DNA of 64,000 nucleotides from NCBI GenBank assembly GCA_027887045.1, contig JAPCJH010000001.1, positions 124,001 to 188,000 of the forward strand, given 5' to 3'. Under the pieces are notes generated by a model, which made no database searches, was not told the DNA's origin, and saw only the letters and a program-made list of their open reading frames with translations. The DNA is from Nitrososphaerota archaeon. Its GTDB lineage: Archaea > Thermoproteota > Nitrososphaeria > Nitrososphaerales > Gagatemarchaeaceae. Shown here piece by piece: positions 3,008 to 11,734 of this stretch; the stretch's first letter is position 1; every line of letters starts with the position of its first letter. The position numbers and the translations under genes were made by a program.

Positions 3008-3331
3008 GGTGCCTTTCGACCGGCGGTGGTTCGGGGCCCGTCATAAGCTTAAGGTTCTGGTGACTCTTCGGATGATGAAGGTCTACCTTCAGGGCATCAA
3101 CTCAGAGGATTACCGTCCGCGTCGGATTCCTAATCACGGCCTCACTACCCCGCACTCCTGAGCGAACCACTCAGACATCCTATTTCTATGAGACGTCACC
3201 CAAAGGGCATAGGCGCTTATGACTTCTGTTGTTCATTACATAATTAAGCACCAACACCGGATAACTACCCAGAATCAAGTTTACCAGGGTACCTCAAATC
3301 CTTAACTCACAAAAAAAGAGGCCAGCGTTGG
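3008..3331 (+). other. Intergenic region with divergent promoters
   Basis: The interval separates divergent genes. Near 3040-3052 a TTAAGCTTAT stretch can serve the minus-strand translin gene, and near 3298-3306 a TTAA-containing stretch can serve the transporter at 3332. A short AT-rich patch (ACATAATTAAG, about 3238-3248) lies between. I see no tRNA, no convincing C/D box RNA and no conserved reading frame in the remainder. Confidence 0.4.
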
Positions 3332-9823: not shown

Positions 9824-10999
9824 TTACGAAAAACCTCGGAGCAGTTGTTTCGCTTCAGCAGATGCCACGACCCTCGCGAGCTTCATCACCCCGACAATCC
9901 CCAGAGACGACAGTAGCGCAGTCGCGTGAAAATCAAAGTCGGTTGAGCTGAGCTTAGAGAGGAGCTTAGGGGTGGAAAGAGTGGCGACGATGCTATCAAG
10001 CTCCTTGTTGTTGAGCTTCTCGAATACGCCTCGCAGCCTTTTCATCGACTGCATCTCCCTACCAAATCTCGATGTCCAGTCCCGCTGATAGTTGGTCAAA
10101 AGCGCAGGGTCGTCGGACCTGATAGCTTCAGCGACCCACCTCGCCGCTATCACGCTTCCGGCGATGGACGACATTATGCCACCTGCCGTGGTCGGTTTGA
10201 CCTGACCCGCGGATTCTCCTGCGAAAATTGTCCGCCCTTCGACGAACCTCTCAGATGGACCCCCAACGTATATCGGCGCCGCAATCTTCCTGATGATCTT
10301 GTGTCTTCGACCAGCCAAAAATTCATCGAGCGCCTTGAACGCGTTGATACCGAACCCTGAAGCTCCAACTTTCGCCTTCGTCCCTCCGTACGGAATGACC
10401 CACGCGAAGAACCCTGGATATTTCTCCTGGTTCAGGAATACCTCCACCTTCCCCTCTTCGACCCATTCGCCCTCGATTTCGTACTTGGCAGCGGGGATTA
10501 TCCCCTCTCTCGGACTCGATGCTGGCCCGGTCGCATCCACGAAGTAGCGACCCTCGTAAACCTCCTTTCCCTCGACCTTAACACCGTCCTTCTCTGTTAC
10601 GACGTGTTTGACTCGCTCCCCGGCGCGGAGATTTGCGCCCCTCTCGTAAGCCCTTTGCGCGATCTGCTTGTCGTACATGCTCCTGTCGAGGACGACGACC
10701 TCGAGCGCGGTCGCGTTAACCGTCAGGCTGGACCCCATCGGCGAGTGGATCACGCCCTTGTTCACGAGAGCCTGTATCGATTTCCCAATCGGGCCGTAGC
10801 CATACATCCTGAGCCCTCTCAGGCTCACCAGTCCGTCGCACTTTTCTGGTTCCCCGAATTCCTCGTGTTCCTCTAAGAGCAGGACGTTGAGCCCCCTCTT
10901 CGCTGCCTCTGAAGCGAACGTGAGGCCAGCGACGCTCCCCCCGCCCACTATTGCATCGTAACGGGACGCCAAGACGACCGGACTTGCGCAAGCCGGCAC
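9824..10999 (-). CDS. Geranylgeranyl reductase family protein
   Basis: This 391-residue flavoprotein shows the FAD-binding motif DAIVGGGSVAGLTFASEAA near residue 14, EPEKCDGLVSLRG (the conserved region after the first beta-alpha-beta), VDATGPASS, and IFAGESAGQVKPTTAGG near 260-280, as in digeranylgeranylglycerophospholipid reductases. These enzymes saturate the isoprenoid chains of archaeal membrane lipids; some relatives act on menaquinone or chlorophyll precursors. The length is normal. There is no membrane anchor. The gene is followed downstream by the zinc-finger/ef1b pair on the same strand, with a 36-base gap. Confidence 0.88.
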   Translation of the reverse strand: MPACASPVVLASRYDAIVGGGSVAGLTFASEAAKRGLNVLLLEEHEEFGEPEKCDGLVSLRGLRMYGYGPIGKSIQALVNKGVIHSPMGSSLTVNATALEVVVLDRSMYDKQIAQRAYERGANLRAGERVKHVVTEKDGVKVEGKEVYEGRYFVDATGPASSPREGIIPAAKYEIEGEWVEEGKVEVFLNQEKYPGFFAWVIPYGGTKAKVGASGFGINAFKALDEFLAGRRHKIIRKIAAPIYVGGPSERFVEGRTIFAGESAGQVKPTTAGGIMSSIAGSVIAARWVAEAIRSDDPALLTNYQRDWTSRFGREMQSMKRLRGVFEKLNNKELDSIVATLSTPKLLSKLSSTDFDFHATALLSSLGIVGVMKLARVVASAEAKQLLRGFS

Positions 11000-11057
11000 T
11001 GTTAAGTTTGCTGACGCAACAACAGGGGCGCTTTTATCTCCAGTTACGATTCATACT

Positions 11058-11345
11058 CAGGCAATCGCCGGATGAAGATGGGTCAACAGGCGACATGGGT
11101 TTACACCCGAACGCCGATCCATCCGATGTTGGATAAGAGGTTGCTTGACAAGCGTAAAATCCGAGCTGGCCATGGTCAAGCTCGCCAGTGAATAGCTGGC
11201 TCAGGACCGCTGAGGTTCGGCGGTGACGGGCTCTCAGGTGAAGCGATGGTACGGGAACCCGACGGCGACGGCAATCCCGAAAGTTGATGGGGGCAAGTTC
11301 AGAGCCTGGAGCGATGTCCGGGTAGCTTGACAGAACCCGCAAGCC
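11058..11345 (+). ncRNA. Candidate structured RNA
   Basis: No convincing reading frame exists in the 387-base gap from 11000 to 11386. A TATA-like CGCTTTTATCTCC at about 11030-11042 would start a plus-strand transcript near 11058. The interval is packed with hairpins in order: GGCG..GGGT/ACCC..CGCC (about 11089-11115), ATCCA/TTGGAT (11118-11134), GCTT/AAGC (11143-11153), CGAGCT/AGCTCG (11162-11184), GCCAG/CTGGC (11184-11200), CCGCTGA/TCGGCGG (11208-11224), and a domain closed by GGCTCT/AGAGCC (11229-11317). Near the end, GACAGAACCCG matches the conserved region V core of RNase P RNA, but I found no region I match, so that identity is only a suggestion. Confidence 0.4.
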
Positions 11346-11386
11346 TTAACCCCGCCTCTCTAAACGGTTTAGTCAAAGGAAGCTGA

Positions 11387-11734
11387 ATGAAACAGGTCAT
11401 CGCTGTCAGAACCGACCTGAAGATTGGTAAGGGGAAAATTGCAGCACAAGTCGCGCACGCCTCGCTTGCGGCTGCCGAGGAGGCGATGAGGAGCAAGCCA
11501 GGTTGGTTCGAATCATGGAAAGACGGTGGCCAGGCCAAGATAGTGGTTAAGGCAAGTGATGAGGGGCAATTGAGGGACCTGTTCAAGAAAGCCCGGAGCG
11601 CTCATCTCCCGTGCGCGATAATAGAAGATGCTGGGCTTACTCAACTTGAGCCGGGGACACCAACTTGCGTTGGCATAGGACCGGCTTCGGACGATTCGAT
11701 AGACAAGATTACGGGGAATCTCAAGCTGTTATGA
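11387..11734 (+). CDS. pth2: Peptidyl-tRNA hydrolase, Pth2 type
   Basis: Pth2 releases peptidyl groups from tRNAs dropped during translation. The 115-residue protein matches the whole family length. It starts MKQVIAVRTDLKIGKGKIAAQVAHAS, whose K-x-G-K-x-x-A-Q-x-x-H-A is the family signature, continues with IVVKASDEGQL, and ends with the EDAGLTQLEPGTPTCVGIGP motif that carries the catalytic aspartate. The start is ATG at 11387, with the AT-rich TAAACGGTTTAG just upstream. The stop overlaps the start of truD (ATGA), so the two tRNA-related enzymes are translationally coupled. Confidence 0.95.
   Translation: MKQVIAVRTDLKIGKGKIAAQVAHASLAAAEEAMRSKPGWFESWKDGGQAKIVVKASDEGQLRDLFKKARSAHLPCAIIEDAGLTQLEPGTPTCVGIGPASDDSIDKITGNLKLL

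Follow-up and report, generated by a model that had tools for sequence, protein, structure and literature searches.

A tnpB-less omegaRNA element with IS6-type ends as the probable occupant of the reductase/pth2 spacer in a Nitrososphaerota archaeon

Introduction

What occupies the interval at positions 11000-11386 of the window, the whole 64,000-nucleotide stretch of Nitrososphaerota DNA analysed here? The interval lies between a geranylgeranyl-reductase-family gene on the minus strand (9824-10999; TIGR02032, 158 bits, just below the cut-off) and pth2 on the plus side (11387-11734), and an ORF check of the window found no convincing ORF within it. Among named organisms, the nearest Pth2 neighbours belong to Nitrososphaeria (Thaumarchaeota, Nitrososphaerales) and include Ca. 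Gagatemarchaeum, which makes a Gagatemarchaeaceae-like thaumarchaeon the most likely host. An earlier, sequence-only reading had likewise described the interval as gene-free, and had proposed a structured RNA, either a divergent RNase P RNA or an undescribed stable RNA, from a plus-strand TATA box, a series of hairpins and a string resembling conserved region V of RNase P RNA. The answer presented below involves TnpB, a nuclease related to CRISPR-Cas12, and its omegaRNA, for which a tnpB gene in cis is usual but not universal. The prevailing view links prokaryotic TnpB to transposases of the Y1 (IS605) or serine (IS607) type; IS200/IS605 elements use the Y1 TnpA, and IS607 elements use a serine recombinase and are without terminal inverted repeats (TIRs) or target-site duplications (TSDs).

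Results

The string GACAGAACCCG is indeed present at 11329-11339, and its resemblance to conserved region V is the evidence for a divergent RNase P RNA. However, covariance-model searches for archaeal RNase P RNA (RF00373, no match above the gathering score) and SRP RNA found neither in the interval, which had no Rfam match beyond chance level; across the whole window, Rfam gave no match at curated cut-offs and chance-level matches alone at E up to 10. Both RNAs were found elsewhere in the same genome, a full archaeal RNase P RNA at G000:C1:485500-485786 (188.7 bits, E 6.7e-57) and the SRP RNA at C1:449544 (E 4.1e-30). The sequence-only reading had itself said that a clear RNase P RNA elsewhere in the genome would count against it, so the RNase P interpretation fails on its own terms, and it is extremely improbable that the interval encodes a divergent RNase P RNA or SRP RNA. 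Folding energy, tried as evidence for a structured RNA, was not significant: the plus strand alone gave z -0.85, its stability being equalled or exceeded by 20 of 100 shuffles, and the ordered hairpins seen by eye are therefore, taken by themselves, not above chance.

Comparison with relatives revealed an insertion. The reductase/pth2 arrangement with a short spacer was present in all 29 relatives fetched, none of which carried the insertion (0/29); these empty sites rule out a host RNA conserved next to pth2. The insertion site is the short divergent promoter region between the two genes, and its uninserted sequence reads ..TTTGCGCAAGCCTTAACCCC.. in one relative (L054) and ..GCTGCGCAAGCCTTAACCCC.. 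in another (L067). At the window junctions, the left flank ends with TTGCGCAAGCC and the right flank starts with CGCAAGCCTTAACCCC, and comparison with the uninserted sequences showed that 8 bp, CGCAAGCC, are duplicated and bracket 10995-11337. The duplication is perfect (10987-10994 identical to 11338-11345), and the 8-mer is single-copy in the empty sites of relatives, e.g., TTTGCGCAAGCCTTAACCCCG in L054, and also in L067. The left end, GGCACTGTTAAGTT, and the reverse-complemented right end, GGTTCTGTCAAGCT, are identical at 10 of 14 positions. The features of the insertion are as follows.

10984-10986, plus strand: TTG, candidate transposon-associated motif (TAM), directly 5' of the target duplication and matching the TT(T/G) preference of 23 validated tnpB elements
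10987-10994, no strand: left copy of the 8-bp target-site duplication CGCAAGCC
10995-11337, plus strand: whole element, 343 bp, a miniature, tnpB-less, TIR-flanked omegaRNA transposon (TIR, TSD, empty in 29/29 relatives)
10995-11008, plus strand: left TIR GGCACTGTTAAGTT, with the GG..CTGT.AA pattern of tnpB and IS6-like elements
11025-11038, plus strand: promoter-like AGGGGCGCTTTTATC context within the element (TATA box), where sister elements have a conserved GGNGCTTAAAT
11324-11337, plus strand: right TIR AGCTTGACAGAACC, which is also the 3' end of the scaffold; the conserved end in relatives is ACAGAACC
11338-11345, no strand: right copy of the 8-bp target-site duplication CGCAAGCC

The limits first proposed, 11000-11386, thus overlap the real unit and are slightly offset from it; bases 11338-11386 are the original pth2 promoter and leader.

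The insertion might have been co-opted by the host, as part of the pth2 leader or promoter or, in gene control, as a guide RNA derived from TnpB. It lies between two divergent genes, with its end 49 bp ahead of the pth2 start, and the reductase on the opposite strand may also use its TATA-like box, both of which would suit such a role. However, the emptiness of the site in all 29 relatives makes co-option quite unlikely. Moreover, the putative guide region described below matches its own site only, with no second target at up to 3 mismatches in the ~1.2 Mb of the own genome (about 56% complete).

A DNA search of 60 relatives showed that the 3' part of the interval (~11205-11302) is repeated in many genomes at 73-81% identity, often in multiple copies. 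Re-oriented, the copies in relatives were the 3' ends of tnpB genes, and the conserved DNA extends beyond the tnpB stop codon to a sharp end at RACAGAACC, after which all sequences are divergent. The motif GACAGAACC, previously taken for RNase P region V, is in fact the right end that is conserved across a family of tnpB/omegaRNA transposons. An HMM trained on 16 tnpB-element ends, with the window excluded, matched the window at 11208-11337 (plus strand, E 5.1e-16) and 3174-3053 (minus strand, E 1.1e-15). A covariance model (R1) trained on 35 relatives, again with the window excluded, matched 11224-11337 and 3053-3158, with nothing else significant.

11205-11300, plus strand: remnant of the tnpB 3' coding end (..PLRF..LSGEAMV/GNPTATAIPKVDGGKF), its frame broken by a frameshift and stops
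11224-11337, plus strand: omegaRNA scaffold (R1 67.6 bits, E 1.7e-13; nhmmer E 5e-16; 19/20 pairs kept; covariation)
11230-11235 with 11289-11294, plus strand: scaffold helix P1
11252-11256 with 11275-11279, plus strand: scaffold helix P2
11259-11261 with 11269-11271, plus strand: scaffold helix P3
11297-11302 with 11326-11331, plus strand: scaffold helix P4
3053-3158, minus strand: second omegaRNA scaffold, also tnpB-less (R1 68.3 bits, E 1.2e-13; nhmmer E 1.1e-15)

The four helices were supported by an alignment of 47 sequences (A3), in which 88.8% of cells were paired (68.5% in shuffles) and 180 cells were changed on both sides (70 in shuffles). The covariation score was 0.469, versus 0.170+/-0.012 in shuffles, which do not remove relatedness, and at most 0.16 in slid versions, a control that keeps relatedness. 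The window copy retains 19 of the 20 pairs, including a switched pair at the base of P2 (C11252-G11279, C-G for the usual G-C). The long-range GGCTCT/AGAGCC stem drawn by the sequence-only reading is absent from this structure, in which GCTCTC (11230-11235) pairs instead with GGGGGC (11289-11294). That reading was nonetheless right in substance: the covariation check in relatives that it had suggested gave a strong signal, the structured RNA it expected is present, with a conserved, covarying and retained structure, and with no Rfam family match "undescribed stable RNA" was an apt description.

The scaffold ends at 11337, the right end of the element, where it adjoins the TSD and the flank then follows. 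By its homology and common fold with the RNA ends of tnpB elements, it is a TnpB omegaRNA. Matches to this omegaRNA were found in 32 of 300 class-level genomes, and the RNA is common in Nitrososphaerales and without an Rfam family. We conclude with high confidence that the interval is a 343-bp TIR/TSD insertion that carries an omegaRNA scaffold and is without tnpB.

The second tnpB-less omegaRNA lies ~8 kb from the first, with no TnpB match upstream of the scaffold (L353). Its element perhaps extends to ~3276, and its left end and target duplication are degenerate (best TSD 6/8, TIR 9/14). The single-contig, near-complete genome G133, from another family of the order, has 11 omegaRNA matches.

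In cis, the window element retains only the broken 3' remnant of tnpB. The own genome (~1.2 Mb, about 56% complete) contains a single intact TnpB, a 393-codon open frame (guided_TnpB, 120.4 bits versus a cut-off of 100) that keeps the conserved D168, E250 and D335/D337, and its omegaRNA subtype, according to the A3 rows, differs from that of the window copy. A scan of the genome contigs with this TnpB as query found nothing.

The same ends and the 8-bp duplication are found on some 20 tnpB elements of relatives and on some 8 other tnpB-less miniatures. The tnpB elements include L175 (TIR 24/25, TSD TGCTGAAG, 1231 bp), L176 (TIR 24/25, TSD CGAGGTTC, 1242 bp) and L086 (TIR 23/25, TSD CTCTCTTT, 1451 bp), and further clear TIR/TSD examples are L186, L116, L139, L123, L021, L194, L202 and others. 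A strict criterion required a match of at least 7/8 in the TSD and at least 9/14 in the TIR, and for the null the real flank was exchanged for random 8-mers taken from the locus. Of the tnpB-linked ends, 17 of 64 qualified versus 0.2 by chance, as did 8 of 26 solo ends versus 0.15 by chance; the solo ends were chosen as being without a nearby full tnpB, and a few of them retain a short tnpB 3' remnant. The tnpB-less elements, of 254-374 bp, occur in G002, G004, G007, G011, G021 and G029, plus one more in the own genome (L339), which is 300 bp long with TSD TAATAAGA. Other families of the order contribute tnpB elements (L391, L394 and L400) and a solo element (L402).

In most tnpB and solo elements, GGNGCTTAAAT or a variant, an archaeal TATA-like box, is located ~25-55 bp from the left end, and the window element has GGGGCGCTTTTATC at this position. 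The plus-strand TATA-like sequence recognized earlier, GCGCTTTTATC at 11028-11038, is confirmed. The 5' half of the window element (11040-11200) showed no clear relation to the 5' half of other solo elements; a shared 5' domain is present among some other solo elements and absent in the window copy. Another non-autonomous element with the same ends, L363:1501-2015, is 515 bp long (TIR 19/20, GGTTCTGTTAACTTAGCGGT; TSD CGCAGTCC) and carries ORFs of ~100 aa only.

These comparisons bear on whether the element is simply a dead scar, i.e., a recently decayed fragment of a tnpB transposon whose RNA has gone out of use. The tnpB frame is broken, the element is single-copy, its left TIR is weak and the own TnpB belongs to another RNA subtype, all as expected of a scar. 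However, the ends, the promoter position and 19 of 20 scaffold pairs are kept although the coding part is gone, and similarly sized solo elements with perfect target duplications of their own occur in several relatives, a recurrence not expected from independent random decay. The pair-preserving changes in the window scaffold may predate the loss of tnpB. We therefore regard a dead scar as a real possibility, but the less likely one.

The element might also be an ordinary IS200/IS605 or IS607 derivative (PATE-like) with a coincidental duplication, since these families are the classical home of TnpB and omegaRNA. However, many independent insertions show perfect 8-bp duplications together with TIRs of 14-25 bp, insertion of IS605 leaves its target unduplicated (PMC8612924), and TnpB-only elements have been described as being without TIRs and TSDs (PMC3627910). 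The 343-bp unit has an 8-bp TSD and no transposase ORF, which does not fit IS200/IS605, and its TIR and TSD do not fit IS607. On the strength of the TIR and TSD, we reject an IS605/IS607 origin of the window element; this reading, with its coincidental duplication, is very improbable.

The ends correspond to those carried by IS6-family elements of this archaeal order. One such element, L381 (G043), is 676 bp long with TIR GGCTCTGTTAACTTAAG, TSD CCAAATTA and a 203-aa transposase (NF033587, E 5e-32, but 111 bits versus a cut-off of 125). In another, L146 (G011), the IS6 transposase scored 144.6 bits, over the cut-off of 125; its TIR is GATTCTGTTAACTGATTTGCACGC, and it is flanked on both sides by TTCACGGG, with one extra G on the left. 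The window element has TIRs of the same type as L381 and L146, its own left TIR being weak (10/14), and the 8-bp TSD of IS6-like MITEs. Ends and an 8-bp duplication shared by tnpB, solo and IS6 elements suggest that tnpB and its guide RNA ride IS6-like elements, not IS605/IS607, and the ends and duplication length point to movement in trans by an IS6 transposase. The own genome contains an IS6 transposase (L147, 146.9 bits versus the cut-off of 125), and a search for its matching ends found none. The 1.9-kb L146 element (L146:768-2661) contains several extra small ORFs beside the transposase, which are possible cargo.

Among the 23 validated tnpB elements, positions -3 to -1 before the duplication were T (16/23), T (18/23) and T or G (19/23), and an AT-rich, TATA-like stretch was located 7-12 bases upstream of the duplications. 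The window site has TTG and is without the AT-rich stretch on that side. In TnpB systems, cleavage is permitted by a motif located 5' of the target, with the right flank acting as the guide (PMC8612924). The corresponding region of the window is as follows.

11338-11357, plus strand: putative guide region (TSD and pth2 promoter, host flank), adjoining the scaffold on its 3' side as guides do in TnpB systems (PMC8612924); length inferred

Many insertions lie 7-12 bp downstream of a TATA-like sequence, perhaps between the host TATA box and the transcription start, which may reflect a transposase that prefers such targets or the survivorship of insertions in dense genomes. Around 10960-11040 of the window, the insertion cuts off the reductase gene from its ancestral promoter, and the element carries GATAAAAG on its minus strand, which may have taken over as the TATA box of this gene.

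Discussion

We propose, with a probability of roughly 0.8 (a compromise figure for the whole explanation, mechanism included), that the interval is a non-autonomous transposon, an internal-deletion derivative of tnpB elements with IS6-type TIRs that retains only an internal promoter and, at its right end, the omegaRNA scaffold. TnpB has been proposed to keep its transposon from being lost, in the manner of a homing endonuclease (PMC10278001), and the window element may work similarly. Transcription would start from the element's own TATA box and continue past the right end into the flanking DNA, so that the first ~20 nt of the flank (TSD and pth2 promoter) would become the guide. A TnpB made elsewhere in the genome would bind the omegaRNA in trans, and the complex would cut the re-formed empty site (TTG + CGCAAGCCTTAACCCC...), either after excision or on an uninserted sister copy, and repair of the cut site would copy the element back. 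The inserted copy would be spared because the left junction has the TAM with 8 matching bases only and the right junction has a full match without a TAM, which would leave the empty site as the target. An IS6-family transposase would move the element in trans. A stand-alone guide RNA that lets a trans-supplied TnpB re-cut the empty site and restore the insertion is the most likely function of the element, and we give it about even odds. We likewise consider it an evenly balanced proposition that these elements constitute an undescribed archaeal class, in which TnpB and guide RNA reside on IS6-type transposons with TIRs and 8-bp TSDs, including guide-only miniatures that recruit TnpB in trans to keep their insertion.

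The existence of an archaeal tnpB clade whose elements have IS6-like TIRs and 8-bp TSDs indicates that, in prokaryotes too, a DDE-type transposon can make use of TnpB, as happens with Fanzor in eukaryotes, and the guide-only miniatures offer a direct test of whether a transposon can survive on guide RNA alone, with the nuclease made elsewhere. A literature search in full text, with subscription journals and most preprints outside its scope, turned up no description of TnpB elements arranged in this way.

Like the OMEGA systems of IS200/IS605 and IS607, the window element has its RNA at the right end, where it overlaps the 3' end of the tnpB coding sequence; the adjoining flank is the putative guide, and the left junction bears a TAM-like motif. 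In contrast to them, it has TIRs and 8-bp TSDs and no linked Y1 or serine transposase, the window copy is tnpB-less, and its RNA matches no Rfam model. Stand-alone omegaRNA loci without a nuclease gene in cis are known for the IscB of Ktedonobacter, whereas the window RNA is of the TnpB type and resides on a TIR/TSD miniature element. A survey of thaumarchaeal mobile elements found IS200/IS605 to be dominant in one species and did not discuss TnpB ends (PMC6563490). According to an analysis of the IS6/IS26 family, archaeal IS6-like TIRs exceed the bacterial consensus in length and bear a loose relationship to it, and MITEs of the IS6 type have been described (PMC6807381). The insertion sequences of the archaeal IS6/IS26-like group and their MITEs share with the window element the TIR GG(C/T)TCTGTTAACTT and the 8-bp TSD, but the cargo here is tnpB/omegaRNA instead of a transposase. 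Finally, Yoon et al. described eukaryotic Fanzors in TIR/TSD elements in which the TIR is part of the guide-RNA scaffold (PMC10711439). The likeness to Fanzor lies in this arrangement, in which a TnpB relative is carried by an element that duplicates its target and whose TIR contributes to the scaffold; the window element differs in being archaeal, with IS6-like ends, an 8-bp TSD and the nuclease gene missing. If TnpB does reside on IS6-type elements, these would be a prokaryotic parallel to Fanzor in eukaryotes.
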